A stretch of DNA of 45,955 nucleotides from Rhodospirillaceae bacterium (lineage in GTDB: Bacteria > Pseudomonadota > Alphaproteobacteria > GCA-2746255), in assembly GCA_002746255.1 (NCBI GenBank), contig NVWO01000002.1, positions 21,427 to 67,381 of the forward strand. The letters run 5' to 3'. The translations under genes and the position numbers were made by a program. This document shows, in pieces, positions 1-16,518 of this stretch (position 1 is the stretch's first letter; each line of letters begins with the position of its first letter). The notes beneath the pieces were generated by a model that was given only the letters and a program-made list of their open reading frames with translations, was not told the origin of the DNA and searched no databases.

Positions 1-876
1 GACAAAAGCCTGCTTTACAATCGCTTTCTTCGCCATGTCCAGCTTCGCTGGGTGCGCGCCATTGGCGAGGCGGGGTTCGATGCCGTTTACATGAAGGGCT
101 TTGCAAATGCGCATCTTTTTTACGACGATCCCGATGCGCGTGTGATTGGCGATCTTGATCTTTTGGTGCACGCACAGGACCTTGACCCGCTCATTCATTT
201 TCTATCCGGGCGCGGGTTTCGTTTCAGCGGCGAGGCGCGTTCGCCCTGGGGATTTATTTCCGACACCAGTTTTCTTCCTTTTGTTTCCGAAGATGCCAGC
301 GCCAATCTTGATCTTCATATCGCCCCAGACGCGTATCCAGCAACGCGTGTGCTGTCGACGGGAGCGGTTTTTGCCGCCTCGCGCTGGTTGAACATCGAGG
401 GTTTGCGCTTGCGCGTGCCCTGCCCGGAGCATGGTTTTTTTCTTATGTTGACGAACGCGGCCAAGCTTTCCTTTGGGCCGGCGAGCGTGCGCAAGACCGT
501 CGATGCGTTGCGCATGCTTGAAAAGGCGAAAGCCCTTGACTGGCGTGAAATCGGGGCTTTGGCGCAGGCGGGCCGGTCCGGCAAAGCGCTTCGCAGTTTT
601 TTGCAATTGCTCCAACATCTTGGAGCAAATCTTGGCGATGTTCCGGCACATCTTCGCAGGCCTTTTCACGGGCTTGCGGCGCGCGAATTTGCATCCCTTG
701 CGGTTGATACCGACGCCCTTTTTCCGGTGGTGCCGGGCCTTTTCACGGCCTTGCGCCGCGAGCTTCTTCTGGCGACGGATATGCGCGTCGCTCTCTATCG
801 AAACTGGCGTCGTGTGCGCGGCCTCGTCCGTCCCCATGGCGGCTTGCCGCCGGGACATGAAAAGCCAAGCCCTTGA
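1..876 (+). CDS. Nucleotidyltransferase-fold protein (NTP_transf_5-like), 5' end outside window
   Basis: The frame is open from the first base, so the start probably lies upstream; the first in-window start is GTG at 52. The protein has the pattern of the uncharacterised nucleotidyltransferase family (Pfam NTP_transf_5): a KG pair, then Y-x-D-P, then R-x-x-G-D-L-D-L-L-V around bases 91-168, where the GD-x-D acids would bind metal. Members commonly occur in polysaccharide loci and near HprK-related kinases and PqqD-like proteins. The substrate is unknown. Here it is followed after 66 bases by a flippase gene on the same strand, and an HprK-like gene lies at 13844. Family assignment is good; function is not known. 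Confidence 0.8.
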   Translation, partial: DKSLLYNRFLRHVQLRWVRAIGEAGFDAVYMKGFANAHLFYDDPDARVIGDLDLLVHAQDLDPLIHFLSGRGFRFSGEARSPWGFISDTSFLPFVSEDASANLDLHIAPDAYPATRVLSTGAVFAASRWLNIEGLRLRVPCPEHGFFLMLTNAAKLSFGPASVRKTVDALRMLEKAKALDWREIGALAQAGRSGKALRSFLQLLQHLGANLGDVPAHLRRPFHGLAAREFASLAVDTDALFPVVPGLFTALRRELLLATDMRVALYRNWRRVRGLVRPHGGLPPGHEKPSP

Positions 877-942
877 TGCTAAGGTGGCGCGCCTTTAATG
901 CAAGGCGGCGGCTTAAGGGATTTGCAAGCCGGGGGGCTTGGA

Positions 943-2202
943 ATGCGCGACCGAATTTTCGGAATGGTCAAACGTCACCGTCATGTGAACTGGGCGCTGA
1001 CGGATCAGGGAATGGTGAGCGGCGCGAATTTTCTCACCACCATTTTGATTGCCCGTCATTTGGGCATTGAGGAATTCGGGCGGTTTACCCTGGCCTGGCT
1101 GGTCGTTCTTTTTACGACGAGCCTGCAGATGGCGGTGATTGTCTCGCCGATGATGAGCATCGGCCCCAAGCAGAAGCCGGAAGATGTGCCCGCTTATTTT
1201 GGGGCTCTTTTTCTTCAGCTGCTTGTCTTTGTCGCGATCACCTTTTTTCTTATTTTCGCAGGCGTGCATCTTGTGGCAGAGATCCGTCCCGAATGGGATT
1301 TGCGTCCCCTGGCCATTCCCCTGGCCGTGACGGCGGTTCTTTTTCAACTGCGCGATTTTTTGCGGCGTTATTTTTTCACACGCCGCCGCCCGGCCATCGC
1401 CTTTGCGGGCGACGCCGTTGCCTATCTTGGCCTGCTTTTTTTGCTGTTCCTGCTGCTGCCGTTTTTTCATTTTGATGGCGCCGATATTCTTTGGCTTATC
1501 GGTGGCGCGTCCGCTGCGGCGGTTCTGATTGCGCCGCCCTTTCTTGGGCATGTTGCCTGGCGGATGGGGGCCTTTACCGGTGTTTGCAGGCGGCACTGGC
1601 ATTTTTCAAAATGGATGGGGGCCTCCGCCTTGTTTCAATGGGCCTCGACTTACCTTTTCTACATTGCCGTAGGCGGCATATTGGGTGCGGCTGCGCTCGG
1701 CGGCCTTCGCGCCGCGCAAACGCTGATCGGCATCAATCATATTTTTCTCCAGGGGCTTGAAAACATCGTGCCGCCCCATGCTGCCGAGCATCTAACGGGC
1801 GGGGGAAGGCGTGCGCTTGCCGCCTATCTTCGCCGGGTTGCCTGGGCGATTGGGCTGGCGACGGCGGCGCTTGGTATCGTTGCCGCCGCCGCGCCTTCCT
1901 TCTGGCTACAACTCGTTTTCGGAGCATCCTATGCTGCCTATGGCGACGTGCTTCGCTGGTGGGCTCTTATTTATGTGGTTGTGGCGCTGACGCTTCCGCT
2001 TCGCGCCGGTCTGCGTGCGCTGGAACGCACGCGCCCGATTTTTCGAAGCTATGCGTGTGCCGCGTTGTTTACTCTGCTTGCCGTGTATCCGCTATTGACA
2101 GGCTTTGAGCTGACGGGTGCGATGATTGGGCTTTTCGGCGCACAATTAACGGCGTTGGTTGTCCTTTTGAGAGCGCTTAGAGTGGAACTTGCAAATGCTT
2201 GA
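943..2202 (+). CDS. Polysaccharide flippase, Wzx/MATE-like membrane protein
   Basis: A 419-residue, very hydrophobic protein with roughly twelve predicted membrane segments and short charged loops, matching the length and character of Wzx/RfbX lipid-linked oligosaccharide flippases. It would move undecaprenyl-diphosphate-linked sugar units across the inner membrane. The N-terminal region (VNWALTDQGMVSGANFL, then ARHLGIEEFG) is typical of the family. The frame also offers ATG at 898, but the start at 943 has a G6 Shine-Dalgarno run at 931-936 and avoids a non-protein-like Gly-rich stretch, so I prefer 943. It lies in a surface-glycan locus with an O-antigen ligase and several glycosyltransferases. 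No single motif proves transport specificity. Confidence 0.85.
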   Translation: MRDRIFGMVKRHRHVNWALTDQGMVSGANFLTTILIARHLGIEEFGRFTLAWLVVLFTTSLQMAVIVSPMMSIGPKQKPEDVPAYFGALFLQLLVFVAITFFLIFAGVHLVAEIRPEWDLRPLAIPLAVTAVLFQLRDFLRRYFFTRRRPAIAFAGDAVAYLGLLFLLFLLLPFFHFDGADILWLIGGASAAAVLIAPPFLGHVAWRMGAFTGVCRRHWHFSKWMGASALFQWASTYLFYIAVGGILGAAALGGLRAAQTLIGINHIFLQGLENIVPPHAAEHLTGGGRRALAAYLRRVAWAIGLATAALGIVAAAAPSFWLQLVFGASYAAYGDVLRWWALIYVVVALTLPLRAGLRALERTRPIFRSYACAALFTLLAVYPLLTGFELTGAMIGLFGAQLTALVVLLRALRVELANA

Positions 2203-2256
2203 ACATAAAATGGATGTCACATCGTAAGGCTAGCTTAGGCTGAAAGGAGACCCGGG

Positions 2257-2937
2257 ATGCATGAATCTCTGGTGCCAAGCGAATTTCTTGACGGCGATAC
2301 CGCGATTCTTGAAATCGCCCGGTCGAAGAAGGTCCTTCATCTGGGTTGCGTCGGACACACGGACCTTACATCCGAAGCGCGTATAGAACTCATAAAGAAG
2401 ACGCTTCACTGGAAACTTAGCAAAATTGCCAATGTCACTGGTGTCGACTATAGCAAAGACGTAATTGGTGAGTTGGATCGTTTTGGAATATTCAGCAACA
2501 TCGTCTACGGCAACGTGGAACGTTTAGAAGAGATTGATCTTGATGAAAAATTCGACGTTGTGATCGCCGCGGATATCATCGAGCATCTCGCTCTACCGGG
2601 TGCGCTGCTAGGGGGGATTAGACGTTTTTGTCGCCCGGATACACAGGTCATTCTTACGACGCCAAATGCCTTCGCATTGCCAAACTACCTTCGGTTTTTA
2701 TTCGGCACCTTCGAAGAAGGAGAAGAGCATGTAATGACCTTTAGTGTTTACAGCCTATTTAATCTTCTACGTCGCTATGACTACAAGATTGACCATGTGG
2801 CAACCTGTTACCGAGTGCATACCAAGGTGCATGGGATTCTATTTAAACTAGGAAAGGTTTTTTTGTCACTGGCCCCAAGATTCGGTGGCACGCTTTTTCT
2901 GGTCATGCATGCGCAATCGCTGGATTCGCCAGGATGA
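2257..2937 (+). CDS. Class I SAM-dependent methyltransferase
   Basis: 226 residues with a Rossmann methyltransferase core: motif I KVLHLGCVGHTD at residues 25-36, an acidic ribose-binding residue in VTGVDYS, and a motif VVIAADIIEHL like the VDAVxxxHVLEH region of Methyltransf_11/23 proteins. AAGGAGA lies 8-10 bases before the ATG. Such enzymes in glycan loci usually methylate a sugar or a chain end; the acceptor here is not visible. Codon use and base composition are clearly more AT-rich than the flanking flippase and galE genes, and this gene opens a four-gene cassette that looks acquired. The 3' end converges on the CDP-glycerol transferase gene. Confidence 0.85.
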   Translation: MHESLVPSEFLDGDTAILEIARSKKVLHLGCVGHTDLTSEARIELIKKTLHWKLSKIANVTGVDYSKDVIGELDRFGIFSNIVYGNVERLEEIDLDEKFDVVIAADIIEHLALPGALLGGIRRFCRPDTQVILTTPNAFALPNYLRFLFGTFEEGEEHVMTFSVYSLFNLLRRYDYKIDHVATCYRVHTKVHGILFKLGKVFLSLAPRFGGTLFLVMHAQSLDSPG

Positions 2938-2970
2938 ACGCCTGGCCGTATCGATAGGGTCTGTCTGCGG

Positions 2971-4128
2971 CTAGTTCTCCATGTCCAACGCTCTTATCAA
3001 CTCGCAGCAACTGTTTTTATGATCCGCGTGCAGGAGCTTAAGAAGCGAGGGATATAAGTTTTTCTCCCCGATGCGATCCAGATATTTTTTTACGGCTTCG
3101 ACCAGTTCTTTTTGGCGGACAACCAGGGGAATACCATGTTCCGTCGGATCAAAATCCCAAATCAGTCCCCGGCTTTTTTTGTAGGCAGCCATGTCGGGAA
3201 AATGGCACAGGATCGGCCTATCCAAGAGTAGGTAATCAACCAGAACGGACGATATATCCGTAATAAGCATGTCCGACATGGAAAGCAGTTCGTACAACGT
3301 TGTTTCCGATTGCCCCAGCCATTCTTCGTCGATCATGCGAATGTTTGACAGGCTTTCTGGGTTAAAATCTGCCTCCAGCCTGGCGGCCATCGGGTGCGGC
3401 TTCACAAGAACAATAAGGCCCAGATCTTTGAAGGCGCCGTCCAATGCGTCGATATCCAGATCCGGTAGATTAAAGATATTCTCGGCTTGTCTGCCATCCA
3501 GCCTTTTTTCGCCCAAGGCCACTTTCCGGTAGGTTGGCAGCCATATGGCCAATTTTTGGTCGCCACAGATTTTCTTTTTTAAATCTCTATTTTGCGCTTT
3601 GAGCAGAATATCGTTTCGGGGCAGCCCAACTTCCAAAATCCTCTCTTCCGGCGTGGCGAAGGCGGTGGAAAGGACTTTTGAAAAGAAGGGCGACGTTGAA
3701 ATTGTATATGTCGAGAAAGGCATTCTTTGGTTTTTCTCCAGATAGCAGCCAATTTTTTTTATAGGCATTCCATGCCAGACGTTCACTGTAATTTGCTTTT
3801 GAACCGGTCGGATCGAGGCAAAGCATCCATGGGTAAAGAAAACGTACTTCGATCTCAAATATGCCCAAATACCCCGCGCGGACAATTTTCTGTATTGCCG
3901 CACATGGGCACGGTTTTCCTTTATCCATTTAGGCGTTTTCACAAGCGTATGCGTCAAAATGACGATCTGAAATGCAACGGCGCTTTTCGAAAGCCCGTCT
4001 AACAAGCCTCTTGTCATATCGTCATAATCGGGGAACGAATGGATGCAAACCTGATTTGCCCGCTTGGGCACTATGAAATTCAGTGCTTGGAAGATTCCTT
4101 TTAGGCAGGAGGGGCCAATACGAAGCAT
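2971..4128 (-). CDS. CDP-glycerol glycerophosphotransferase (TagB/TagF family)
   Basis: 385 residues with family hallmarks in order: NVWHGMPIKKIG (residues 116-127), VGLPRND (167-173), VKPHP in the middle, and the C-terminal DMLITDISSVLVDYLLLDRP, which in TagF is the nucleotide-binding part of a GT-B fold. The enzyme transfers glycerol-phosphate from CDP-glycerol to a glycan or lipid acceptor. The gene is 10 bases downstream of a glycerol-3-phosphate cytidylyltransferase gene on the same strand, so donor synthesis and transfer are coupled. In a Gram-negative the likely product is a glycerol-phosphate substituent on O-antigen or capsule, by inference. Both genes face against the surrounding locus and are AT-richer than it. 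Confidence 0.88.
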   Translation of the reverse strand: MLRIGPSCLKGIFQALNFIVPKRANQVCIHSFPDYDDMTRGLLDGLSKSAVAFQIVILTHTLVKTPKWIKENRAHVRQYRKLSARGIWAYLRSKYVFFTHGCFASIRPVQKQITVNVWHGMPIKKIGCYLEKNQRMPFSTYTISTSPFFSKVLSTAFATPEERILEVGLPRNDILLKAQNRDLKKKICGDQKLAIWLPTYRKVALGEKRLDGRQAENIFNLPDLDIDALDGAFKDLGLIVLVKPHPMAARLEADFNPESLSNIRMIDEEWLGQSETTLYELLSMSDMLITDISSVLVDYLLLDRPILCHFPDMAAYKKSRGLIWDFDPTEHGIPLVVRQKELVEAVKKYLDRIGEKNLYPSLLKLLHADHKNSCCELIRALDMEN

Positions 4129-4138
4129 CGCAAGATCG

Positions 4139-4675
4139 CTATTTTAAATCGGCAAGAAGCCGGTGAAGAATTTCATATTGAATCGCCAGTTCTTTGGGGC
4201 TCAATTTATGGATTGATTCCAGGGCGTGCTTTACATCGGTTGATGATACGCAGGCGGTTCTTGGAAGGTATCGGACCTCGCAATACGCTTCCAGATCATC
4301 AAATTTCCCGCGCCAATCATCGCCCATGGCAAAAATATCGACGCCATATTTTTTGATGTCATCAACTTTTTGCGACCAGCTGCTTTCCGCAATGACAAGG
4401 TCGACGCACGATAATGACTCGATGATTTCGGCCCTTTGGGGAAAGGGGACAATCGTTCGCTTTCCCTTTACCGCATTGAATTCATCCGTGGAAACGCCGA
4501 CGATCAATCGATCGCCAAGATCTTTCAACCGCTTAAACAACCGAAGATGCCCAACATGAAACAGATCGTAGGTTCCATAGGTAAGGACCGTTTTATGTTG
4601 GGCGGCTTTTCGTTTGTTCAATGCTGCAATGGCCCCTGTCCAATGTTCTCCAGATGATCTTTGGACCGAATGCAA
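4139..4675 (-). CDS. Glycerol-3-phosphate cytidylyltransferase (TagD-like)
   Basis: Makes CDP-glycerol from CTP and glycerol-3-phosphate. The nucleotidylyltransferase signature GTYDLFHVGH (residues 34-43) binds CTP, followed by DRLIVGVSTDEF and GDDWRGKFDDL, as in TagD. TagD proteins usually start a few residues before the signature, whereas this frame begins with TTG at 4675 and adds about 28 residues; an internal TTG at 4621 behind AGGGG would give 160 residues, so the start is uncertain. The usual RTxGISTT stretch is replaced by RTIVPFPQRAEI, which leaves some room for another polyol phosphate as substrate. It probably forms an operon with the glycerophosphotransferase at 2971-4128. Confidence 0.85.
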   Translation of the reverse strand: MHSVQRSSGEHWTGAIAALNKRKAAQHKTVLTYGTYDLFHVGHLRLFKRLKDLGDRLIVGVSTDEFNAVKGKRTIVPFPQRAEIIESLSCVDLVIAESSWSQKVDDIKKYGVDIFAMGDDWRGKFDDLEAYCEVRYLPRTACVSSTDVKHALESIHKLSPKELAIQYEILHRLLADLK

Positions 4676-4989
4676 TCCTATCCAATTTGAAGAATTTACA
4701 CAATGATAGGGGGATATCTATTCGGCTTCTGAAGCGGGCTGGATATAAGGGCTGACGGCATCTGCCGTTGTTCCGGTCGGTTTTTTGGGGGAAGGTTTCT
4801 GTGGGCGGCTTCATCTGGAAGCGGAGGATTCGAACCGTATTTCGAAATTCTATCGCTGCGCTATGATAGTGACTGGGGCGATGCAAAGTATGGGCTATCA
4901 GGACTGCCTGCTCTCTTCATTGGAGCCGGAATAAGGAAACGTTCCCCTCATGGGGTGGGCGAGGGATTTATGCAGAAATTGGATGTTCC
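4676..4989. other. Divergent intergenic region of the AT-richer cassette
   Basis: 314 bases between the cytidylyltransferase (minus) and the second methyltransferase (plus), which must hold both promoters. I see no convincing -35/-10 pair. A plus-strand frame without stops runs from about 4735 to 5004, ending inside the next gene, without a good start or Shine-Dalgarno sequence. It may be decayed coding sequence or chance. Confidence 0.4.
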
Positions 4990-5712
4990 ATGCGTGTGCT
5001 GAATCTGGGCTGTGGCTCGAAGACCTCCAGTCGATGCATTAACATCGACTGGTCTCCCTATCTTCGGGTAAAGAAAAATAAGCTTTTACGTGTGCTCGTT
5101 GCACCATTCCTTAATGAGGAGCGGCGGCATCGCCTGATCATGCTATCGGACAACGTAATGGCTTGGAATCTGAGAAAAGGTATCCCTTTTCCAGATGAAA
5201 GCGTCGATGCAGTTTATCATTCGCATATTCTTGAACATATCGATCGCAAGGATGTCGCTTCCTTTCAAAAAGAAATTTATCGTGTGCTGAAATCGGGCGG
5301 CACGCAGAGAATTTGTGTGCCGAATTTAGAAGCGCTCGCGCGGGATTATCTCAGCAGCTTGGAGCGTTGTAGAGTGGACGAAACGGCGCTCGATCACCAT
5401 GATAATTGTATTGCAGAGATGATTGAGCAGTGCGTTCGGCGAGAGCCCTTTGGAACGCAGCATCAACCGCCCGTGCGGCGATATTTGGAAAACCTGATCT
5501 TGGGCGACGCGCGCAAGCGTGGAGAGACGCATCAATGGATGTATGATGAATGCAATTTAAAATTTATCCTAAGGCAGGCCGGGTTTCATGGCATTGCCAT
5601 TCGCCGTTTCAACGAAAGCAATATTCCAGATTGGCAATCTTTTGGCCTTGAGGTGGATGAAGAAGGCAACGAGTATAAGCCGGGATCTTTATACGTTGAC
5701 TGTATGAAGTAG
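4990..5712 (+). CDS. Class I SAM-dependent methyltransferase
   Basis: 240 residues. Motif I is at the extreme N terminus (RVLNLGCGS, residues 2-10), D20 is the likely ribose-binding acid, and VDAVYHSHILEHI (72-84) is the motif typical of Methyltransf_11 enzymes in glycan clusters. VYRVLKSGG-type text follows (YRVLKSGG, 97-104). The very early motif I is common for small sugar-locus methyltransferases. No strong Shine-Dalgarno precedes ATG 4990, but no other in-frame start keeps motif I intact. Composition is AT-richer than the downstream ligase gene, grouping it with the 2257-4675 cassette. The acceptor is unknown; methylation of a terminal sugar is a reasonable guess. Confidence 0.83.
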   Translation: MRVLNLGCGSKTSSRCINIDWSPYLRVKKNKLLRVLVAPFLNEERRHRLIMLSDNVMAWNLRKGIPFPDESVDAVYHSHILEHIDRKDVASFQKEIYRVLKSGGTQRICVPNLEALARDYLSSLERCRVDETALDHHDNCIAEMIEQCVRREPFGTQHQPPVRRYLENLILGDARKRGETHQWMYDECNLKFILRQAGFHGIAIRRFNESNIPDWQSFGLEVDEEGNEYKPGSLYVDCMK

Positions 5713-5837
5713 AATAGAGTCGTGAGGTTGGATCATTGCAACGAAGGGCCGGGATGCCAAGGCAATGATTGCAGGCTTGGCGCGGGCGCTCCATTTGCGG
5801 GTGTCGTCACAACGTTGCTGTTCGGAAGGAGGCAGTC

Positions 5838-7169
5838 TTGACTCTCGCAAACGCTCGAGACCGGCTGGCTCTTTTCATCCTCGCCTGTTATCTGATCCTG
5901 AATTACGGCGTCATGATCTTGCGTGTGCCGCCGGGAATTGGGGCGCCGTTCGGCGAGCTGTTGCTGCTGGGCTATCTTCTATGGCTTGCCGATGTGCGAT
6001 TTTTACCGCGCTTTTCACGTACAATCATGCTGCTGCCTTTTCTTGTTTGGTGGGGGCTCGGGTTTGGACAGCTCTTCATCAACCTTCCAGAGCATGGAAT
6101 GTGGGCGTTTCGCGACGCGACCCATATGATCGAATCCCTTTTCCTGTGGGTTGGCTTTGTCTTTGCGGCCAGGGAAGCAAATATTGAGCGGTTCTTCCGG
6201 TGGCTTCCAACGCTGCTTGCAATCGGCGTTGTTTTCGGCCTGACTTATCCTTTCAGGGACTTTTTCCAAAGTCTTTCGCCGGCGATCATTTCACCCTCTG
6301 GAAACGATGTTACAATCTTCTTCCAGTACATAAACACGTCGGTGATGGTATTGATGGCCGCGGCCTATCTGATGATTGTCCGGCCCAAAACATTTGTTGT
6401 TGGGCCTTTGTTGCTGGCACCTCTGCTTCTGGCCTATGCCGTCGCCTTTTTTCAGGCGCGCACGGTCTACCTTCAGGTGATCGCGATGCTGTTGCTGTTC
6501 GCGTGGCAATATCGTGGCTCTTTCGTAAAGATGTCGTCCTCACTGGTTGTGGGCATGGTGGCCTTTCTCATTGTTTCTGCGTTTGGCATTCAGCTTACCG
6601 GCCGTCTCGGTGGTGCCATCTCCTTTGACTTCGTGATTGCGCATTTTGGTACGATCATGGGGGAAGGCAGCGGCGAATTTGCGGGGGCGGCCGGGGGCGT
6701 AGATCTCCGCATTGGATGGTGGATCGATATCTGGCAGCGGGTCACGTCCAGTTTGGATAGCTTGCTCTTTGGTCTTGGCTATGGCGAGCCGCTGGTCGAT
6801 TTCGTCAACCGGGAAGGCTCGGTCGTTCGCGAGCCGCATAATTCCTATATTTCAATTTTTGCTCGCACAGGACTCTTTGGTCTTTTTGCCTTTATCTGGA
6901 TGCACGCGGTTTTACTGACCGTCTGGTTTCGCGCCATGCGCCTTTGCCGGCGGGCGAAATACCGCGTTGGTCAGGAGAGGCTCCTGGTGCTTTTTGTCTT
7001 TTTCCTGCTGGTGTGGATTTTTGGCATTGGGGAAGATGCGTTCGAGAAGCCCTTTAATACGATCCCCTATTATTTTTTCTGGGGCATCGTTCTGCATTAT
7101 TCCTTATATTTACGCGCGAAGTTGAAAGCGCCTCTGGTTACCAGGCGTCCACTTCGCAGCCGCATTTAA
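5838..7169 (+). CDS. O-antigen ligase/polymerase family membrane protein (WaaL/Wzy)
   Basis: 443 residues, largely hydrophobic with about ten to twelve membrane segments, a long periplasmic loop (residues about 245-335) and the Wzy_C signature HNSYISIFARTGLFG starting at H334. Such proteins either polymerise O-units or ligate finished chains to lipid A-core in the periplasm; sequence alone does not separate the two. I chose TTG at 5838 because AAGGAGG lies at 5826-5832 with five-base spacing; the longer frame from 5769 has no such site and adds a non-membrane, Arg-rich stretch. The gene is 10 bases upstream of a GT4 glycosyltransferase and is probably co-transcribed with it. Confidence 0.85.
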   Translation: MTLANARDRLALFILACYLILNYGVMILRVPPGIGAPFGELLLLGYLLWLADVRFLPRFSRTIMLLPFLVWWGLGFGQLFINLPEHGMWAFRDATHMIESLFLWVGFVFAAREANIERFFRWLPTLLAIGVVFGLTYPFRDFFQSLSPAIISPSGNDVTIFFQYINTSVMVLMAAAYLMIVRPKTFVVGPLLLAPLLLAYAVAFFQARTVYLQVIAMLLLFAWQYRGSFVKMSSSLVVGMVAFLIVSAFGIQLTGRLGGAISFDFVIAHFGTIMGEGSGEFAGAAGGVDLRIGWWIDIWQRVTSSLDSLLFGLGYGEPLVDFVNREGSVVREPHNSYISIFARTGLFGLFAFIWMHAVLLTVWFRAMRLCRRAKYRVGQERLLVLFVFFLLVWIFGIGEDAFEKPFNTIPYYFFWGIVLHYSLYLRAKLKAPLVTRRPLRSRI

Positions 7170-7179
7170 GGCCAGGCCC

Positions 7180-8346
7180 ATGCGCGTTCTTCTCGTCCAT
7201 AATTTTTACCGCCACGCGGGTGGCGAAGACGCCGTGTTCGGACACGAAGGCGAATTGCTGGCTACCCATGGTCATGACGTTCGGGAGTTTACGATTGCGA
7301 ATGATGCCATTGCGGGGCCGCTTGGGGCTTTTCGTACCGCCCTGGCGGTGCCCTATTCGGTGCGTGCTCGCGGGCATATGGCGCGTGCGTTGGCGGAACA
7401 CGCGCCGGACCTCGTTCACGTTCATAATTTCTTTCCGCTGCTGACGCCGTCCATTTTCGATGCCTGCCGGGCCGCGCGCGTCGCCTCGGTGATGACACTG
7501 CACAATTACCGGCTGATCTGTCCGGCGGCGACCCTGTATCGTGGCGGCCGGATTTGCGAGGAATGCGTGACGGGCTCGCCCTATCGCGCCGTTTTGCACG
7601 GATGCTATCGCGGCTCGCGCTCCGGATCCCTTGCCGTTGCGCGCATGGTCGCCCGCCATCGCAGGCGTGGCACCTGGGCAACCCGGCCCGATCGCTTCAT
7701 TGCGCTGACTGAATTCGCCAGACGCAAATTCATCGAAGGCGGTCTGCCGGGCGCGCATATACGGGTGAAGGCAAACTTTCTTCCCGACAATCGCGCGGCT
7801 GGTGAACATGTTGCGGCGCGGTGCGGCGGCCTTTTTGTCGGGCGTCTTAGCCCGGAGAAGGGCATTGGTACACTGCTTGACGCCTGGCAGGGTCTGGACG
7901 TCCCGTTGCGGGTGATTGGCGAGGGGCCGCTTCTGGAAGAGGCGCGCCGTCGCAAGGGTCCGGCGGTCACGGTGTCTGGCGCGGTGGCGAAAGAAGACGT
8001 TGCGGCGGCAATGGCGCGCGCCGCTTTTCTCGTCCTGCCATCGCAATGGTACGAAGGCTTTCCGATGGTGTTGGTGGAAGCCTTTCGGGCCGGGCTTCCG
8101 GTGATCGCATCAAAACTGGGCGCGATGGCGGAAATCGTGGAGGATGGAAAAACCGGCCTGCATTTTGAACCGGGGGACGCGTCGGATCTGGCGGCGAAAG
8201 TGCGCTTCGCCGTGGCCAATCCGGACGCGATGCGCGCCATGGGCGTAAATGCCCGAAAGATCTATGCGGAAAACTACACGGCGGACGTAAACTATACGCG
8301 CCTGATGGAAATTTATGACGAGGCGCGCCGCGTGAAGCGGACATAA
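7180..8346 (+). CDS. Glycosyltransferase family 4
   Basis: 388 residues of GT-B fold. The N-terminal acceptor domain begins MRVLLVHNFYRHAGGEDAVF, a common start for GT4 proteins, with HVHNFFPLLTP after about 80 residues. The C-terminal donor domain has GRLSPEKGIGTLLDAW (about 219-234), VIGEGPL, and the E-x7-E donor motif in YEGFPMVLVEAFRAGLPVIAS (about residue 290). It transfers a sugar from a nucleotide-sugar to a growing glycan on the cytoplasmic face; donor and linkage cannot be read. galE follows 14 bases downstream, hinting at UDP-galactose or UDP-GalNAc supply, but this is only context. Confidence 0.88.
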   Translation: MRVLLVHNFYRHAGGEDAVFGHEGELLATHGHDVREFTIANDAIAGPLGAFRTALAVPYSVRARGHMARALAEHAPDLVHVHNFFPLLTPSIFDACRAARVASVMTLHNYRLICPAATLYRGGRICEECVTGSPYRAVLHGCYRGSRSGSLAVARMVARHRRRGTWATRPDRFIALTEFARRKFIEGGLPGAHIRVKANFLPDNRAAGEHVAARCGGLFVGRLSPEKGIGTLLDAWQGLDVPLRVIGEGPLLEEARRRKGPAVTVSGAVAKEDVAAAMARAAFLVLPSQWYEGFPMVLVEAFRAGLPVIASKLGAMAEIVEDGKTGLHFEPGDASDLAAKVRFAVANPDAMRAMGVNARKIYAENYTADVNYTRLMEIYDEARRVKRT

Positions 8347-8360
8347 AAGAGGCGTTACAA

Positions 8361-9353
8361 ATGCGCATATTGGTCACCGGGGGTGCCGGCTATATCGGCA
8401 GCCACACGGTTTTGGAACTTGCAGGCGCCGGTCACGATCTGGTCGTCGTCGATAATCTTTCGGCGGGCCATGCCTGGGCGGTGCTTGCCGGCAAGCTGGT
8501 GATCGCGGATTTGGCCGATGACATGGCGATGGAGGCGCTTTTTAAAGAACATGCCTTCGATGCCGTCGTCCATTTCGCCGCCCATATCGAGGTTGCCGAA
8601 TCGGTTGCCGATCCGCTGAAATATTACCGAAACAACACGCGGAACACGCTGGCGCTGCTGGAACGCTGCCTCCGCTTCGGCGTCAAATCGTTCGTCTTTT
8701 CCTCGACGGCGGCGGTTTATGGCATGCCTTCGAACCCGGTGGTTTCCGAGGAAGATGCCCTGCTTCCCATCAATCCTTATGGCGCATCGAAAATGATGAG
8801 CGAGCGTGTGTTGCAGGACGCGAGCCATGCGTCAGATTTGCGTTACGTCATCCTGCGCTATTTCAACGCCGCTGGGGCCGATTCAGGTGCCAGGATCGGC
8901 GAAGCCCACGACCCGGAAAGCCACCTTATTCCCATCGCTGTGCAGACGGCCCTCGGCCGCCGTCCAAAAATAAAAATTTTTGGTACCGATCACACAACAC
9001 CGGATGGCACTTGTGTGCGTGATTACATTCACGTCTCGGATCTGGCGGCAGCGCATCGGGCCGCCCTAGACCATCTGGGCGCAGGGGGTGCGTCGCTGGT
9101 TCTCAATTGCGGCTATGGCCATGGGGCAAGTGTGCGTGAGGTCATCGCGATGGTAAAGCAGGTGTCCGGTATCGATTTCTGCGTTGAGGAAGGCCCCCGG
9201 CGTGCGGGCGATCCGCCGGAACTGGTGGCCGATGCGTCACGCATTCGCACGGCCCTCGACTGGAAACCGCAATATGACGATTTGCAGTTCATCGTCGAGA
9301 CGGCCTTTAACTGGGAACGCACCTATCGGGACGGCGGCGCTGGACATGCCTGA
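8361..9353 (+). CDS. galE: UDP-glucose 4-epimerase
   Basis: 330 residues, the usual GalE length. It interconverts UDP-glucose and UDP-galactose (some homologues also the N-acetyl forms) using bound NAD. Visible features are the NAD motif GGAGYIGSH (residues 7-15), the VVVDNLSAGH turn, VVHFAAHIEVAES, the catalytic FSSTAAVYG serine region, Y140 with K144 (YGASK), RYFNAAGAD and a C-terminal RRAGDPPELVAD. It begins 14 bases after the GT4 gene, and its last eight bases overlap the start of the GT26 gene, indicating translational coupling and one operon. Confidence 0.95.
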   Translation: MRILVTGGAGYIGSHTVLELAGAGHDLVVVDNLSAGHAWAVLAGKLVIADLADDMAMEALFKEHAFDAVVHFAAHIEVAESVADPLKYYRNNTRNTLALLERCLRFGVKSFVFSSTAAVYGMPSNPVVSEEDALLPINPYGASKMMSERVLQDASHASDLRYVILRYFNAAGADSGARIGEAHDPESHLIPIAVQTALGRRPKIKIFGTDHTTPDGTCVRDYIHVSDLAAAHRAALDHLGAGGASLVLNCGYGHGASVREVIAMVKQVSGIDFCVEEGPRRAGDPPELVADASRIRTALDWKPQYDDLQFIVETAFNWERTYRDGGAGHA

Positions 9354-10104
9354 AAAGGGTGCCGTGATTGGCGCACCGGTGACGGTGGGTGACGTTGATG
9401 CCGCGGCGGCAACGATCCTTGCCGCAGCCGAGGCGGGCAAGGGCGGCTATGTCTGCGTCGCGAATGTGCACATGGTGACGACGGCAAAAAAGGACCCGGG
9501 CCTGCTGGCGGCCATGGAAGGCGCGCTTTGGGTAACCAGCGACGGCATGCCGCTTGTCTGGGCGCTGCGGCGTCACGGCCATGAAAAGGCGCGCCGGGTA
9601 GCAGGCCCGGATCTGATGCGGCATTTGCTGCAAAAAGCGGAGACGGCGCGTGTGCCAGTCTATTTTTTCGGTGGCAATGTGGCGACCGTTGCTGCCTTGA
9701 AGGCCGCATTGGAAACGCAGTTTCCAGCCCTTGTTCTGGCTGGAATCGAGGCACCACCGCTGCTGCCCCTTGCGCCAGAGGTGGATTCCGGGACGGTTGC
9801 GCGCATCAATGGCACAGGTGCCCGCCTTGTCTTTGTGGGCCTTGGCTGTCCAAAACAGGAATACTGGATGGCGGCGTACGCGCCGCATCTTACGGGCGTG
9901 CAGATCGGCGTCGGCGCGGCGTTTGATTTTTTTGCCGGCACGCTTGTACGCGCGCCGCGCTGGATGCAGGCGGCCGGCCTTGAATGGCTGTTTCGGTTAT
10001 GGGCGGAGCCACGGCGTCTCTGGCGGCGCTATTTGGTCACAAACAGCCAATTTATCTGGTACGTTCTCGCTTCATGGTTGCTATCAAAGACGGGACGCGT
10101 TTGA
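9346..10104 (+). CDS. WecG/TagA/CpsF family glycosyltransferase (GT26)
   Basis: 252 residues from ATG 9346, inside the last codons of galE. Family features: VCVANVHMVTTAKKDP, the SDGMPLVWALRRHG motif holding the catalytic Asp, RVAGPDLM, FFGGN, a CPKQEYWM stretch, and the C-terminal FFAGTLVRAPRWMQAAGLEWLFRL signature. Members add UDP-ManNAcA, UDP-ManNAc or related sugars as the second residue on undecaprenyl-linked intermediates (WecG, TagA). The partner TagD/TagF-like genes in the same locus fit a teichoic-acid-like linkage chemistry, but the donor here is unknown. A longer upstream frame exists only as an antisense-like extension over galE and is not used. Confidence 0.9.
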   Translation: MPEKGAVIGAPVTVGDVDAAAATILAAAEAGKGGYVCVANVHMVTTAKKDPGLLAAMEGALWVTSDGMPLVWALRRHGHEKARRVAGPDLMRHLLQKAETARVPVYFFGGNVATVAALKAALETQFPALVLAGIEAPPLLPLAPEVDSGTVARINGTGARLVFVGLGCPKQEYWMAAYAPHLTGVQIGVGAAFDFFAGTLVRAPRWMQAAGLEWLFRLWAEPRRLWRRYLVTNSQFIWYVLASWLLSKTGRV

Positions 10105-10108
10105 GCCG

Positions 10109-10696
10109 ATGACGAAAGACCCGCTTCAGACCTTCTTTGACGGCGAATTCGCCGAACACGCCGCCGTCGCCACGGCGACGGAACGGGCGCTTTACGCGCC
10201 CTTTCAACGTCTTCTTGAAACTTCAGCGGCGGCCATCCGCGATGGTGGCAAGCTGCTCTTCTTCGGTAATGGCGGCAGCGCTTCCGATGCCCAGCATCTG
10301 GCAACGGAACTGACCGTTCGTTTTTCAGAAAACCGCAAGGCGATTGCTGCGATTGCGCTGACGGCGGACACGTCGACCCTGACGGCAATCGGCAACGATT
10401 TCGGCTTTGATGCGCTTTTCGCCCGCCAGGTAGAGGCGCTTGGCCGGCCGGGTGATGTGGCCATCGGCATCAGCACCTCCGGTCAAAGTCCGAACGTTCT
10501 TCTTGGGCTGAAACAGGCCCGCAAAATGGGTCTTGTCGCCGCAGCGTTTGGGGGCAAAGACGGCGGCCGGCTGAACGAATATGCCGACCCGCTTTTGATT
10601 GTGCCCAGCGATCGCACGTCGCGCATTCAGGAAATGCATATTATGCTTGGCCACATGTTTTGTGCGGCGCTGGAGCAGGAACTCGGCCTCGTCTAG
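10109..10696 (+). CDS. gmhA: Sedoheptulose-7-phosphate isomerase (phosphoheptose isomerase)
   Basis: 195 residues, the family length. A SIS-domain protein that converts sedoheptulose-7-phosphate to D-glycero-D-manno-heptose-7-phosphate, the first step to ADP- or GDP-heptose for LPS core. Motifs: LLFFGNGGSASDAQHLATEL (about 48-67), GDVAIGISTSGQSPNVL, and the C-terminal IQEMHIMLGHMFCAALEQEL helix with the conserved histidine and glutamates. ATG 10109 is five bases after the GT26 stop. It is directly followed by hldE, the next enzymes of the pathway. The phosphatase gmhB and epimerase hldD are not in the window. Confidence 0.93.
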   Translation: MTKDPLQTFFDGEFAEHAAVATATERALYAPFQRLLETSAAAIRDGGKLLFFGNGGSASDAQHLATELTVRFSENRKAIAAIALTADTSTLTAIGNDFGFDALFARQVEALGRPGDVAIGISTSGQSPNVLLGLKQARKMGLVAAAFGGKDGGRLNEYADPLLIVPSDRTSRIQEMHIMLGHMFCAALEQELGLV

Positions 10697-10707: not shown

Positions 10708-12192
10708 ATGAAGAAGAAAACGGGCGCGGCCCCAGATCCATCCGCATTCGTAGCCGAAGTAGAATCCTTTCATGATGCGCGCGTAATCTGCGTTGGCGAC
10801 GTCATGCTGGACCGCTTCGTCTATGGGGATGTGGAACGCGTTTCACCGGAAGCCCCCATTCCGGTTCTTTGCATTCGCCGGGAAACGACGGTTCTTGGCG
10901 GTGCGGGAAACGTGCTTCGGAATCTCATCGCCTATGGGGCCAAGCCGCGCTTCTTTGCGGTCGTCGGCAAGGATGCGGCGGGTAGTGAATTGCGCGAGCT
11001 TGTTCACGCGTCGGGTGCTGGCAATGACGGCATCTTTATCGAGGACGGCGGCCAGACGACGGTCAAGAATCGTTTTATTGCAGCAAGCCAGCAACTTCTG
11101 CGGGCCGATCTGGAGGCACCGACCGCCCTTGACGAGGTCATGCGCAGCAAACTTCTAAGCGGCATAGAAGACGCCCTTCAGGCAGCGGATATGCTGCTGC
11201 TTTCGGATTATGGAAAGGGTCTGCTGGCTGGCGACATGGTGCCGCGCATTCTCGACATGGCCAGGCAGGCGAAGGTGCCGACCATCGTTGATCCAAAAGG
11301 GTTTGACTATTCACGCTATCGCGGGTCAACGCTGCTGACGCCTAATTTGCGCGAACTTCACGAAGCCACGCGGATGCCGGTTGCAACGGATGGGGACGTG
11401 GTTACGGCAGCGGAAAGCCTGCTGAAGACGGTTGCGGTCGATGCCGTCCTGGTCACGCGAAGTGCCAGCGGCATGACGTTGGTGACGAAGGAAAAAGAGA
11501 TCACGCATCTGTCAGCCCGCGCGCAGGAAGTCTTTGATGTTTCCGGGGCCGGTGACACGGTTGTTGCAACCCTTGCCACCGCCCTTGCCGGCGGCGCGAC
11601 CCTTGCGGATGCCGCCTATCTCGCAAATATTGCGGCCGGCATTGTCGTTGGCAAGGTGGGCACCGCCGTTGTGCGTCCGGACGACCTGATTGCGGCCCTG
11701 CATGAACGCGACCTGCTTGCCAATGCGGACAACTGCGTTTCACTGGAACATGCGAACGAGGCGGTTGAGCGCTGGCGCCGACAGGGCTTGCGCATCGGGT
11801 TTACAAATGGCTGTTTTGACCTGCTGCATCCCGGGCATGTGTCGCTGCTGCGTCAGGCGAAGGCCGCCTGCGACCGGTTGGTCATCGGTTTGAACAGCGA
11901 TGCTTCCGTTGCGCGCCTTAAAGGCCCTGACCGCCCGGTGCAGGCGGAGATGGCCCGGGCGACGGTGTTGGGCTCCCTTGCCGATGTGGATCTGGTTGTT
12001 CTGTTTGCGGAAGATACCCCGGTCCGGCTTTTAAAGGCGCTTCGTCCGGACGTGCTTGTGAAGGGGGCGGATTACCGGGTGGATGAAGTGGTCGGCGCGG
12101 ATTTTGTGAAGAGCTATGGCGGCAAAATTCTGCTGGCCGATCTCACGCCCGGGCATAGCACGACGTCTACCATCACCCGGATCTCGAAATAA
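10708..12192 (+). CDS. hldE: Bifunctional heptose-7-phosphate kinase / heptose-1-phosphate adenylyltransferase
   Basis: 494 residues with both domains of HldE (RfaE). The N-terminal ribokinase-like domain (about 20-335) has LGGAGNVLRNL and the catalytic SGAGDTVVATLA; it phosphorylates heptose-7-phosphate at C1. The C-terminal cytidylyltransferase-like domain (about 360-494) has GFTNGCFDLLHPGHVSLL (from residue 363) and LKGPDRPVQ; it adds AMP to give ADP-heptose. AGGAGG at 10695-10700 precedes ATG 10708. It follows gmhA by 11 bases. Heptose is needed for LPS inner core or can be incorporated in surface glycans, as this locus suggests. Confidence 0.95.
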   Translation: MKKKTGAAPDPSAFVAEVESFHDARVICVGDVMLDRFVYGDVERVSPEAPIPVLCIRRETTVLGGAGNVLRNLIAYGAKPRFFAVVGKDAAGSELRELVHASGAGNDGIFIEDGGQTTVKNRFIAASQQLLRADLEAPTALDEVMRSKLLSGIEDALQAADMLLLSDYGKGLLAGDMVPRILDMARQAKVPTIVDPKGFDYSRYRGSTLLTPNLRELHEATRMPVATDGDVVTAAESLLKTVAVDAVLVTRSASGMTLVTKEKEITHLSARAQEVFDVSGAGDTVVATLATALAGGATLADAAYLANIAAGIVVGKVGTAVVRPDDLIAALHERDLLANADNCVSLEHANEAVERWRRQGLRIGFTNGCFDLLHPGHVSLLRQAKAACDRLVIGLNSDASVARLKGPDRPVQAEMARATVLGSLADVDLVVLFAEDTPVRLLKALRPDVLVKGADYRVDEVVGADFVKSYGGKILLADLTPGHSTTSTITRISK

Positions 12193-13322: not shown

Positions 13323-13493
13323 CGGCACGAGCCTTCTAGGCTGTTGATTTTAAACAGGAAAATGTAAATTTTTTTGATCAGGTTTTCCTGATTATTGAAA
13401 TCGGCTAGGATAAGGCCCATATTTTCAAGATAAGGCATGGGTCCATGCTGGCCTTGATAAAGGGCGGAAGCATTTGGGCCAGGGAAGGGTGTG
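13323..13493. promoter_or_regulatory. AT-rich intergenic region with two small hairpins
   Basis: It separates the polysaccharide operon from the repeat-protein gene. A 5-bp hairpin AGCCT-TCT-AGGCT (13330-13342) followed by TGTTGATTTT could be a weak terminator of the upstream operon. A 6-bp inverted repeat ATCAGG-TTTT-CCTGAT lies at 13377-13392. The AT-rich stretch 13340-13420 is a likely promoter for the next gene, but I cannot assign boxes. Confidence 0.4.
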
Positions 13494-13799
13494 ATGAGCA
13501 AAGCGTCGAGACCGAAAATGGTTAGCCGCCGCAAGGCGCTGGCCCGGCTTGGACTGGGTGCCGCCGCTGTTTATACGGTGCCGGTGCTGCTGCATCTTGA
13601 TGGCAGCGCCATGGCGAAGATCAAACCTTCTCCCTGCGGCAAAGGAAAAGGAAAGGGGCATTGTCCGAGTGGACCGTCGCGGCCTTCCGGACCCTCTGGG
13701 CCTTCCGGGCCTTCGCGGCCTTCCAGACCCTCTGGGCCTTCGCGGCCTTCCAGACCCTCTGGGCCTTCGCGGCCATCTGGGCCTTCGCGACCGTCATAG
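13494..13799 (+). CDS. Tat-like signal protein with Ser-(Gly/Arg)-Pro tandem repeats
   Basis: 101 residues from ATG 13494, with AGGGAAGGG at 13481-13489; GTG 13491 is an alternative one codon earlier. The N terminus has a twin-arginine-like motif SRRKAL (11-16), a hydrophobic stretch (about 19-35) and a possible cleavage site after AMA (39-41), so export is predicted. A short basic linker holds two cysteines (C48, C57) and Lys-Gly pairs. Residues 59-101 are 14 perfect triplets S-x-P with x = Gly or Arg, ending in Ser. I do not recognise a characterised family, though small alphaproteobacterial proteins of the type RRKALxRLG... followed by Gly/Ser repeats are familiar. An HprK-like kinase gene begins 44 bases downstream. 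It could be a modified secreted peptide or a surface filament; unproven. Confidence 0.75.
   Translation: MSKASRPKMVSRRKALARLGLGAAAVYTVPVLLHLDGSAMAKIKPSPCGKGKGKGHCPSGPSRPSGPSGPSGPSRPSRPSGPSRPSRPSGPSRPSGPSRPS
13668..13796 (+). repeat. 9-bp-periodic coding repeat with two exact 27-bp copies
   Basis: Every nine bases encode one Ser-(Gly/Arg)-Pro triplet, 14 times. Units 13712-13738 and 13739-13765 are identical 27-mers, and the next unit (from 13766) starts the same way. All periods are multiples of three, so copy changes would keep the reading frame. Confidence 0.95.
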
Positions 13800-13843
13800 G
13801 TTTCAAGGCCTTTCCGTTGACCCTCATGGGCCGGTAAGAATTC

Positions 13844-14689
13844 ATGCGGCTTCATTTCGAAGGCATTCCTCGTCCCGTTTCTTTTCAGGGATGCGATGAC
13901 CTTCTTCCCTTTCTGAACCCACCGATTTCAGCCTGGCCCCATGCGGTCGAGGAAGCTGCTGTCGGGGAAGCCGAGGCGTCCAAGCCGATCCTGACCCTTG
14001 CCCGGACGGCGGCAGGGTATCGCGTTTCGTCCTGCGTTCATGACGTCACGTCCTATGATTATGCGGATGCCTATGAGGCCGTCGCGGGGTTTTTTTCCGA
14101 ACTCTACATTGCGTTCATTGCCGCCAACCCAGGCCTTCTTTGTATTCATGCGGCAGCTCTACGTTTTAAAAGTGGCCTGTTCGTCTTTCCAGCCAGCGGC
14201 AAGGCTGGCAAAAGCACGCTGGCGGTCCATGGGGCGGCGGCGGGGGCTGTTCTTTTTACCGACGATGTGCTGCCCATTCGCGACGACGAGGGGCTTGGTC
14301 TTTCTTTGGGCGTCGCGCCCAGGCTTCGTCTGCCGCTGCCCGCAAATGTGACGGCGGATTTTCGCGCCTTTCTCAAGGATCGGTCTGTCTTGGAAAATGA
14401 TTACGGACAATTCGTCGGCCTGAAATCCGGTGAAATCGCCAGCTTTGGTTCGGTGGCGCCGATTGCAGCCATCGTGTTGCTTGATCGCATCGAACACGGC
14501 ACGCCTGCTCTCGAGAAAACAGGAAAAAGTGAGGTTCTCCGCGACCTCATGAAGCGAAATTTTACACAAGGCATTGATGCCGAGGCGAAAGTCCGACGCC
14601 TTTTGCAAATTGCAAAATCGGGCATCTGTTACCGGCTGCGCTATGTGACCTGTGATTCAGGCCTTGCGCTTTTGCGCGAAATTTCCTGA
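13844..14689 (+). CDS. HprK-like (HPr serine kinase-related) protein
   Basis: 281 residues. An N-terminal region (1-95) of no recognised family is followed by an HprK-type kinase core: IHAAALRF (101-108), a P-loop ASGKAGKST (117-125) and the acidic pair in LFTDDVLPI (137-145), which in HprK binds metal and phosphate. The first P-loop glycine is Ala117. Relatives occur in natural-product and polysaccharide loci, where some phosphorylate serine in a peptide (for example the lasso-peptide kinases). This gene follows the Ser-rich repeat protein on the same strand, so that protein is the obvious candidate substrate. It is distinct from the true hprK at 27328. Kinase fold is well supported; target is inference. 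Confidence 0.8.
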   Translation: MRLHFEGIPRPVSFQGCDDLLPFLNPPISAWPHAVEEAAVGEAEASKPILTLARTAAGYRVSSCVHDVTSYDYADAYEAVAGFFSELYIAFIAANPGLLCIHAAALRFKSGLFVFPASGKAGKSTLAVHGAAAGAVLFTDDVLPIRDDEGLGLSLGVAPRLRLPLPANVTADFRAFLKDRSVLENDYGQFVGLKSGEIASFGSVAPIAAIVLLDRIEHGTPALEKTGKSEVLRDLMKRNFTQGIDAEAKVRRLLQIAKSGICYRLRYVTCDSGLALLREIS

Positions 14690-14718: not shown

Positions 14719-16518
14719 TTACCCGGCGGCCAGTTTCAGGGAAATATACCGGCAATCGTGCTGTGCCAGAACTTGACAGGCTTCGCCGGTTTGCACCCGT
14801 CGCGGTGCCGCTTCAAGGTAGATTGCCTGGCGCCAGTGGGTGTCGTCTTCGCGCGGCTTTGTTTCAAGGGTGATGGTGTCCGTCAGGTTCAGCCGGAACC
14901 ACAGAAGCACGGCGTGGCAAACGCCGTCCGCCGTAACGGGGATCGCAATTTCCTTTGCTTCGGGTTTTTGGGTGGCATCCAGAAAATCGAAGGAAAAGAC
15001 CTCGACCGAATCAGAAAGCATTTTATGTGGATAGGCGTTGATGCGTTTTGTCAGATATTCGGCGCTTGCAAATTCGTTGAAAAGCCGCATGTCGAACCCG
15101 CAGGCTTCGCTTGTGCGGTCTTCTTCAAAAAGACGCTCGCTTTCGACCAGCATCGCATAGACGGTGCCGCCTTTTGGAAGGATGGTCGCATTTGGTTTTA
15201 GAAGATTTGCGCGTGCATGCGCGATGACTTGCAGGATGCCTTCGCCAAGAAAACCGGCGTTTAGCAATTCCGTCACCAGCACATCGGCACGTTCCGGCAG
15301 GTCGTCGCCGATTTTTAAGTTGTAGGAATGTTTCGGCAGGATCGTTATGCGTTCGGCAAGGTCGTTTTTATGGACGATGCGGCCCGCCATTTTTGCAATC
15401 GGTTCGACGGTTTCACACGCCGTGACATGCGACGCCCCGGCGCGTGCGGCCATCATCGACAGCAGGCCCGCCCCGGCGCCGATGTCGAGAACGGTGGTGT
15501 CGTTTGAAACGCATTCCCGGATTGCCTGATCGTAGGCTTCGTTGCGCGCGCGATCGTTCATCATGGCAAAATGCCAGCGCGGCACCTGGCGTTGCTGGGC
15601 CTCGGAAAGGCCGGCGCGGGCATTTTCAAGATCGGGGTTCAGGGAAAGCGCCTTCTTGAAGGCGTCTGCCGAAGCCTCAATGCGTCCCGTCGCCAAATAG
15701 GCATTGCCCAGATTGTAATGGGCTTCGGCAAATCCGGGGTGCAGCCGGACGGCCTGCTCAAAATGCGGGATGGCGTCTTCGACGTTGCCTTCCGCCTTGC
15801 GGATGTTGCCAAGATTGTTATGCCCCTCGGCAAAGTCGGGATTGGTGCGCAGCGCGTTTTCGATATGCCGGGCGGCGCCTTCGATATCGCCCTCGTTCCG
15901 CAGAATGGTGGCAAGATTGTTTGCGGCCTCGGGAAAATCGTGGCGGATCTCCAGCGCTTTTTCAAGGGCGGCCTTGGCACCGGCAATGTCATTTTGAATG
16001 CGGAGCGTGTCGCCAAGGTTGTAATGGGCTTCCGCATAATCGGGGTGTTTTGCAACCGCTTCGCGAAGCTGGCTGATGGCTTTTTCCATGTTGCCATCGG
16101 CGCGATAGGCGACGCCGAGGCTGATCTGTGCTTCGGCAAAATCGGGACGCAGCGAAAGGGCGCTTTGAAAACGCGCGATCGCCGCCGCCGTCTTTCCCTG
16201 GGCCAGCAGGATATCGGCAAGGTTGTAGAGGGTGTCCGGTGAGGATGGGACTTGTTCGAGTGCGCGTTCAAGAAGTTCACGGGCTTCCTCGCTGGCGCCG
16301 CATTGGTGGCGGAGAACGCCAAGAAGATGCAGCGCGTCCGTATGATCCGGCTGCTGGCGCAGCACGTTTCGATAGATGGCTTCCGCGCGTTCGAATTCGC
16401 CGCGTTGGTGCAGGCGAAGGGCATCGTCCAGGCGGCGCTCTGAAGTGGCGTCCCCCTGGGGCTGGCCCTCGCGGTGTCGCGATCTGTGGGCCTGGCGGCG
16501 GCGTTGTTGTCGGTTCAT
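14719..16518 (-). CDS. TPR protein with PRMT-type arginine methyltransferase domain
   Basis: 599 residues. After a basic Arg/Gln-rich N terminus, about eight TPRs of 34 residues fill 31-308. The rest is a protein arginine methyltransferase-like domain: PRWHFAMMND (313-322), SAM motif I TVLDIGAGAGLLSMMAARAGA (342-362), acidic E369, a double-E loop with E417 and E426 spaced eight residues apart (TELLNAGFLGEG), and a C-terminal THW loop at 560-562. These are the catalytic hallmarks of PRMT7/PRMT9; the TPR-plus-PRMT layout resembles PRMT9. GAGGGA lies five bases before ATG 16518. It converges on the HprK-like gene. Arginine methylation is likely by fold; the substrate is unknown, with the Arg-containing repeat protein nearby as one possibility. 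Confidence 0.85.
   Translation of the reverse strand: MNRQQRRRQAHRSRHREGQPQGDATSERRLDDALRLHQRGEFERAEAIYRNVLRQQPDHTDALHLLGVLRHQCGASEEARELLERALEQVPSSPDTLYNLADILLAQGKTAAAIARFQSALSLRPDFAEAQISLGVAYRADGNMEKAISQLREAVAKHPDYAEAHYNLGDTLRIQNDIAGAKAALEKALEIRHDFPEAANNLATILRNEGDIEGAARHIENALRTNPDFAEGHNNLGNIRKAEGNVEDAIPHFEQAVRLHPGFAEAHYNLGNAYLATGRIEASADAFKKALSLNPDLENARAGLSEAQQRQVPRWHFAMMNDRARNEAYDQAIRECVSNDTTVLDIGAGAGLLSMMAARAGASHVTACETVEPIAKMAGRIVHKNDLAERITILPKHSYNLKIGDDLPERADVLVTELLNAGFLGEGILQVIAHARANLLKPNATILPKGGTVYAMLVESERLFEEDRTSEACGFDMRLFNEFASAEYLTKRINAYPHKMLSDSVEVFSFDFLDATQKPEAKEIAIPVTADGVCHAVLLWFRLNLTDTITLETKPREDDTHWRQAIYLEAAPRRVQTGEACQVLAQHDCRYISLKLAAG

Follow-up and report, generated by a model that had tools for sequence, protein, structure and literature searches.

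The two adjoining genes for a Tat-like small protein (P0001) and an HprK-like kinase (P0002) in the 45,955-nucleotide stretch of DNA analysed here (the window) probably belong to an RRE-guided, RiPP-like phosphopeptide pathway, which resembles the LPP system (PMC13381572) outside the Bacillota, carries its leader within a Tat signal and has its genes inside an exopolysaccharide locus. This reading is based on the gene set and its conservation, on the leader motif, on intact catalytic residues, on the folds and on the genomic context.

The small protein, the kinase and their locus

The original prediction had described P0001 as a Tat-like protein of 101 residues ending in 14 S-(G/R)-P triplets, with an HprK-like kinase encoded next on the same strand, and both descriptions hold (Table 1). 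The arginine pair, the hydrophobic stretch that follows it and the AMA site, which looks like a cleavage site, fit a Tat-type signal; the match to TIGR01409 (13.8 bits) falls slightly below the cut-off of 16.7, and TatC is encoded in the window's genome. An alternative start of P0001 is a GTG located one codon upstream. Between the AMA site and the triplets lies a short Lys/Gly/Cys stretch, KIKPSPCGKGKGKGHC. When the window was searched with a degenerate SGP-SGP DNA pattern, one mismatch being allowed, 11 matches were obtained, 10 of them within P0001, against a mean of 0.45 and a maximum of 3 in shuffled sequences. The DNA of the tail also includes a perfect tandem repeat of 27 bp (13707-13774). 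Upstream of the gene there is an AT-rich gap (13340-13395), with an inverted repeat that was read by eye (CAGGAAAA...TTTTCCTG), as well as a single and weak promoter-like site (13395-13423).

Table 1. Features of the window, with their position, strand and basis
Feature	Position	Strand	Basis
NTP_transf_5 (PF14907) nucleotidyltransferase, 5′ end beyond the window	1..876	+	73.7 bits against a cut-off of 31.2
Polysaccharide gene block	898..10696	+	
Flippase	898-2202	+	
O-antigen ligase/polymerase-like (Wzy_C)	5769-7169	+	
GT4	7180-8346	+	
Epimerase	8361-9353	+	
WecG/TagA	9355-10104	+	
SIS (GmhA-like)	10130-10696	+	
HldE-type ADP-heptose synthesis protein	10708..12192	+	PfkB and cytidylyltransferase
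TPR-methyltransferase directly upstream of P0001	12204..13322	+	Pfam; in several loci a related protein lies near the small protein
P0001, precursor-like small secreted protein, 101 aa	13494..13799	+	49-member family, N-terminus conserved, tail variable
P0001 twin-arginine pair R12-R13 of signal/leader	13527..13532	+	RR invariant in the family alignment
P0001 YTVPVL (Y27-L32), YxxPx[L/V/I] of RRE-bound leaders, inside the hydrophobic stretch	13572..13589	+	49/49 family members
P0001 AMA (39-41), signal-peptidase-like cleavage site	13608..13616	+	From sequence; most relatives AxA-like
P0001 S46 in PSPC, the first serine of the core and proposed as main phosphoacceptor	13629..13631	+	Recurrent position and analogy with LppA S3 (PMC13381572)
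P0001 low-complexity tail, residues 59-101, 14 S-(G/R)-P triplets	13668..13796	+	
P0002, HprK-like kinase, 281 aa	13844..14689	+	TIGR04352 28.7 bits; profile match to 1ko7; fold of the model
P0002 H102, catalytic His of the His-Lys-Asp-Asp set	14147..14149	+	Kept in 33/34 relatives
P0002 P-loop, residues 117-125 (ASGKAGKST), with K123	14192..14218	+	Alignment of relatives
P0002 D140-D141	14261..14266	+	Kept in 33/34 relatives

The kinase gene starts 44 nt downstream of P0001, and each of the other three genomes in the genus has an orthologue that supports its reading frame. No Pfam family matches P0002 at E 0.1, while the NCBIfam models HprK_rel_A and HprK_rel_B match it below threshold; for TIGR04352, only 51 residues are matched and the curated cut-off of 200 is not reached. 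A profile of 34 kinase relatives matches the sequence of the solved HprK/P 1ko7 at 7e-7, and the AlphaFold model of P0002 (pLDDT 94.3) matches PEP carboxykinases and HprK/P, two branches of one fold. The P-loop and the Asp pair are where they had been predicted, and the His-Lys-Asp-Asp set, reported to be essential in lasso-peptide kinases (review, PMC9266682), is complete in P0002 as in 33 of the 34 relatives. The sole exception is the kinase of genome G106 (L067:9324-10238), in which the catalytic His, the Lys and both Asp residues are replaced; that genome lacks the small protein, and this is likely a decayed or re-purposed copy. In the P-loop, Ala takes the place of the usual Gly, as it does in 12 of the 34 relatives. 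A kinase tree, in which the deep branches lacked resolution, was left out of the evidence.

P0002 shares with HPr(Ser) kinase/phosphorylase the fold, the P-loop, the catalytic His and the Asp pair; it differs in an xRLPLP motif of its own and in not matching PF07475. Because an ordinary HprK that does match PF07475 is encoded elsewhere in the window (26881-27759), P0002 is an additional kinase. A different neighbourhood was observed in the f104 family (L050, L055, L058), where the kinase lies directly downstream of genes of sensor-kinase/response-regulator type.

The pair is preceded by a block of polysaccharide genes and by an HldE-type gene, the latter being conserved close to the small protein in most large loci. 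Two different TPR-plus-methyltransferase proteins, encoded on opposite strands, flank the pair, and the second one (14719-16518) gives a PRMT_C match. Further downstream (16800-19267), a gene for a PQQ-dependent alcohol dehydrogenase (16800-18599) is followed by a c-type cytochrome-like gene.

Distribution of the pair and its partner genes

Co-occurrence was evaluated in 385 genomes of the class Alphaproteobacteria, the small protein being searched with an independent profile made of 47 columns of its N-terminus and a confident kinase match being defined as one of 69 bits or more. The kinase was matched in 42 genomes and the small protein in 34. Every one of the 30 genomes with a confident kinase also encodes the small protein, and so do 32 of all 42 kinase-positive genomes; conversely, the kinase is matched in 32 of the 34 genomes that have the small protein (Fisher 1e-35, a value that ignores relatedness, though the pairs span many families). 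The window's order was represented by four genomes of one genus, and the pair is present in all four. A kinase found mostly without such a protein, which would have spoken against the original prediction, is not what these counts show. In several genomes, however, the small protein lies about 25-40 kb from the kinase or on another contig. Among the 12 genomes with a weak kinase match just two contain the small protein, and the idea that every kinase relative is paired with the peptide was dropped. Genomes G116 and G375, the only two in which the small protein occurs and the kinase does not, were likewise dropped as carriers of the family kinase, as their weak kinase matches correspond to ordinary HprK beside RapZ. 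Scans of the contigs of the whole collection with the kinase yielded no match at first, and then two near relatives.

Outside the class, in the f201 family, the small protein is found immediately before a kinase-RRE fusion. The tails adjoining these fusions (L138-L141) are repeats of the SRPSYSRP type, which shows that Ser-Arg-Pro repeats also occur in lineages distant from that of the window. The pair is found as well on plasmids from Shinella and Paracoccus, where the annotations read 'hypothetical protein' and 'PqqD family protein'. In both plasmids a subtilase (PF00082) is encoded directly upstream of the small protein (L161:2001-3338 in Shinella, L162:1969-3234 in Paracoccus), and that of Shinella shows an RR...YAAPALL leader, as in the small protein, together with a Ser/Gly/Arg-rich stretch before the protease domain. 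The plasmid subtilase might be a processing protease; alternatively, the system could handle it as a larger cargo.

A PqqD-like protein (the RRE) accompanies the kinase at most loci, encoded by the next gene or as a C-terminal fusion, and a PF14907 nucleotidyltransferase is often near. The latter is the fourth member of the cassette in relatives: compact cassettes consisting of small protein, kinase, RRE and PF14907 protein, the last adjoining the kinase or RRE, occur in five genomes (G062, G115, G140, G217 and G381), with surroundings that are mostly unrelated. Kinase-RRE fusions adjoin the small protein in G018, G161, G229, G318 and G684, in addition to the f201 family and both plasmids. In six other genomes (G031, G070, G089, G218, G298 and G382) kinase and RRE stand together, next to genes for an ABC-2 transporter, an ABC/HlyD exporter or polysaccharide export, and the small protein is encoded elsewhere; in most of these, as well as in G211, G300 and G377, it is located beside HldE-type heptose genes. 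In the window's genome the RRE gene (C2:6959-7270; PF05402 above cut-off) is found about 28 kb upstream of the kinase, and the PF14907 gene about 13 kb from it. Since split kinase-RRE loci elsewhere keep the small protein by HldE-type genes, the arrangement in the window's genus looks like the large-locus form, with the kinase beside the peptide gene and the RRE left behind. A protein with ABC_membrane and ABC_tran domains and its HlyD partner are encoded beside the RRE both here and in seven other genomes, and constitute a candidate peptide exporter, which may correspond to the MsbA-like transporter of LPP.

The PqqD-like protein might instead belong to PQQ biosynthesis and be unrelated to the pair. 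It is a member of the PqqD superfamily (PF05402), and the window does encode a PQQ dehydrogenase; however, the PQQ-specific model TIGR03859 does not match it, in relatives it adjoins the kinase or forms part of the same protein, and the solved structures closest to it are RREs from lasso and LPP systems. We therefore judge a role in PQQ biosynthesis to be very improbable.

Leader motif, RRE and candidate phosphoacceptor

The conserved part of the small-protein family is the N-terminus, which in the alignment reads RR..L..LG followed by an invariant Y..P. The motif YxxPx[L/V/I], the one for RRE binding in precursors of lasso peptides and LPPs (PMC13381572), is present in all 49 small proteins (Y27, P30 and L32 in P0001), and YxxP was found in none of 13 other RR-signal ORFs of the same loci, a small control set. 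On the side of the RRE, the profile matches the solved chains TbiB1 (5v1u, 4e-12), LppB (9x8z, 3e-9) and TfuB1 (6jx3, 9e-6), as well as PbaB1, and the model superposes on the TbiB1-leader and TfuB1-leader complexes at 1.4-1.9 A. LppB D70, which hydrogen-bonds the leader Tyr, aligns with D75 of the RRE, an Asp kept in 25 of 27 RREs; at the site equivalent to LppB N33, the residue that holds the kink of the leader at its Pro, 26 of 27 have Asp or Asn. As alanine changes in the YxxPxL of BsfA left phosphorylation going (PMC10368454), the motif alone need not guide the kinase.

A further alternative takes the small protein as an ordinary Tat-exported structural peptide, the kinase regulating polysaccharide synthesis, much as HprK controls carbon use, and not acting on the peptide. 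The HprK/PEPCK fold of the kinase and a locus that makes polysaccharide would both agree with this. Against it, compact cassettes free of polysaccharide genes still hold the small protein, the kinase and the RRE, the genome has its separate standard HprK, and neither the RRE nor the invariant YxxP leader would be left with a role; we consider this explanation improbable.

Within the small proteins, conservation is lowest in the tails, which include SGP/SRP (here), GSR, SKE-SKP, SRPSY, Arg-rich, NPDP and LP types, besides short PSPC-x-C forms. At least one Ser is present in 48 of the 49 tails and at least three in 27, Ser amounting to 14.7% of tail residues; one tail is devoid of Ser and some have just one. 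Conservation of the serine array across the family is thus not supported. More regular is the position of the first Ser past the signal, which lies 16 to 20 residues after the Tyr in 36 of 49 members, and just past the leader a P-[S/T]-x-C motif occurs in 21 of 49 tails, its serine being S46 in P0001. In genome G001 (L011:8823-9881) the small-protein gene is present in three tandem copies, two of which have apparently lost part of the leader or the frame; one of these retains an S-x-P tail.

In the LPP consensus, modification is confined to a single phosphorylated Ser, S3, placed 18 residues past the Tyr (PMC13381572), and BsfK phosphorylates only Ser3 of the core (PMC10368454). Taking into account both these precedents, in which the single modified serine is near the leader, and the recurrence of the first post-leader Ser at 16-20 residues from the Tyr, S46 appears by analogy likelier as acceptor than the tail, which might be phosphorylated too. 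The array could itself be the substrate, with many tail serines phosphorylated and/or glycosylated so as to give a multiply charged surface peptide or a point of polysaccharide attachment. The serine content of the tails, the many sugar-transfer genes at the locus and the repeats of S-[R/K/G]-P type in distant lineages (the window's genus, G140, G277 and the f201 family) speak in favor of it; the free divergence of the tails, and the restriction of LppK and BsfK to one serine, speak against it, and on balance we hold it to be rather unlikely.

Proposed pathway and relation to known systems

From these data we infer a pathway in which the small protein would be a precursor whose N-terminus serves both as twin-arginine export signal and as leader. 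The RRE would hold the YxxPx[L/V/I] of the leader and present the still-cytoplasmic precursor to the HprK-like kinase, which would phosphorylate a serine, most likely S46 of PSPC first and possibly tail serines too. The PF14907 nucleotidyltransferase may then elaborate the phosphoserine, as reported for PsmN, which adds a hexose to phosphoserine in pseudomycoidin (PMC9266682); LppN had no activity in its test host (PMC13381572). Export would proceed via Tat or via the ABC/HlyD exporter encoded next to the RRE, the leader would be removed by signal peptidase, and the modified Ser/Pro-rich peptide may act at the cell surface together with the exopolysaccharide of the same locus. Tat export would suit the model, because ATP-dependent modification would be possible before the membrane is crossed. 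The central idea of the original prediction, a kinase that serves an exported peptide and is kin to lasso-precursor kinases, stands and is much strengthened by the RRE, the leader motif, the PF14907 gene and the co-occurrence, the modification itself being proposed on these grounds.

The likeness to LPP (LppA-K-B-S-D-N of Paenibacillus alginolyticus; PMC13381572) comprises a small precursor with a conserved leader and a variable tail, YxxPx[V/L/I], an RRE with the Tyr-binding Asp, an HprK-like kinase, the setting in a polysaccharide locus, the lack of a cyclase and the serine-Tyr spacing (mostly 16-20 residues here, 18 in LPP). The PF14907 protein is a candidate counterpart of the LPP NTP transferase, LppN. 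In contrast, the full LPP consensus YxxPxVLxHQxIxFETxxS is not found: YxxPx[LVI] is followed here by LHLDGSAMA, and the leader, which takes the form of a twin-arginine signal and has an AxA site, lacks HQxIxFETxxS. The RRE is a discrete protein of LppB type in the window's genome and is fused to the kinase in some relatives. No archaeal SpI leader peptidase of LppS type was found, the best match to TIGR02228 in the genome reaching 21.6 bits, against 51.85, on another contig. LPPs are stated to be restricted to Bacillota; the present gene set occurs in Alphaproteobacteria and, beyond that class, in a further family of the phylum. As neither the SpI peptidase nor the second half of the leader was found, we describe a system that works like LPP and do not file it as LPP.

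Further precedents are PadeK/PsmK/PsmN (PMC9266682), and the phosphorylated lasso peptides (paeninodin, pseudomycoidin, Bsf; PMC9266682, PMC10368454) share with the present system the His-Lys-Asp-Asp kinase, the RRE and the [Y/W]xxPxL leader; the pseudomycoidin cluster also has a nucleotidyltransferase (PMC9266682). A lasso pathway whose cyclase and leader peptidase are encoded at other genomic sites would agree with these common elements, and Asn_synthase-family genes do exist, only on other contigs. It is contradicted by the long low-complexity tails without a ring-forming pattern, by the lack of a cyclase at the locus and by the lack of any match to the lasso B2 peptidase (PF13471) in the genome; being scarcely credible on this evidence, it was rejected. 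The HPr-rel-A system (kinase A, TIGR04352; PqqD-rel-X, TIGR04353) shows the same pairing of an HprK-related kinase with a PqqD-family protein. The kinase stays far from the cut-off (28.7 against 200) and the RRE of this genome does not match TIGR04353; judged by these curated sequence models, the system is not HPr-rel-A.

Within the collection of papers searched, none was retrieved on HprK together with PqqD and exopolysaccharide, on HprK-related kinases or on Tat together with PqqD RiPPs. A broader reading, which we offer tentatively and with less than even confidence, is that Alphaproteobacteria widely possess an undescribed family of phospho- or phosphoglyco-peptides exported by Tat, in which the leader is the export signal and the modified Ser-rich tail links or organises the exopolysaccharide. 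With one segment acting both as export signal and as RRE leader, cytoplasmic modification would therefore be coupled to export.

The May 2026 paper on LPPs describes them as restricted to Bacillota and their role as unknown (PMC13381572). That class would be greatly widened by a related gene set, with a different leader and no dedicated peptidase, in many alphaproteobacterial families and in one or more further families of the phylum. The polysaccharide-locus setting repeats the pattern of Bacillota in another phylum and strengthens the link between phosphopeptide and extracellular matrix, a link that can thereby be tested in Gram-negative relatives amenable to culture. If the leader does double as a Tat signal, this would be a new way of coupling peptide modification to export.
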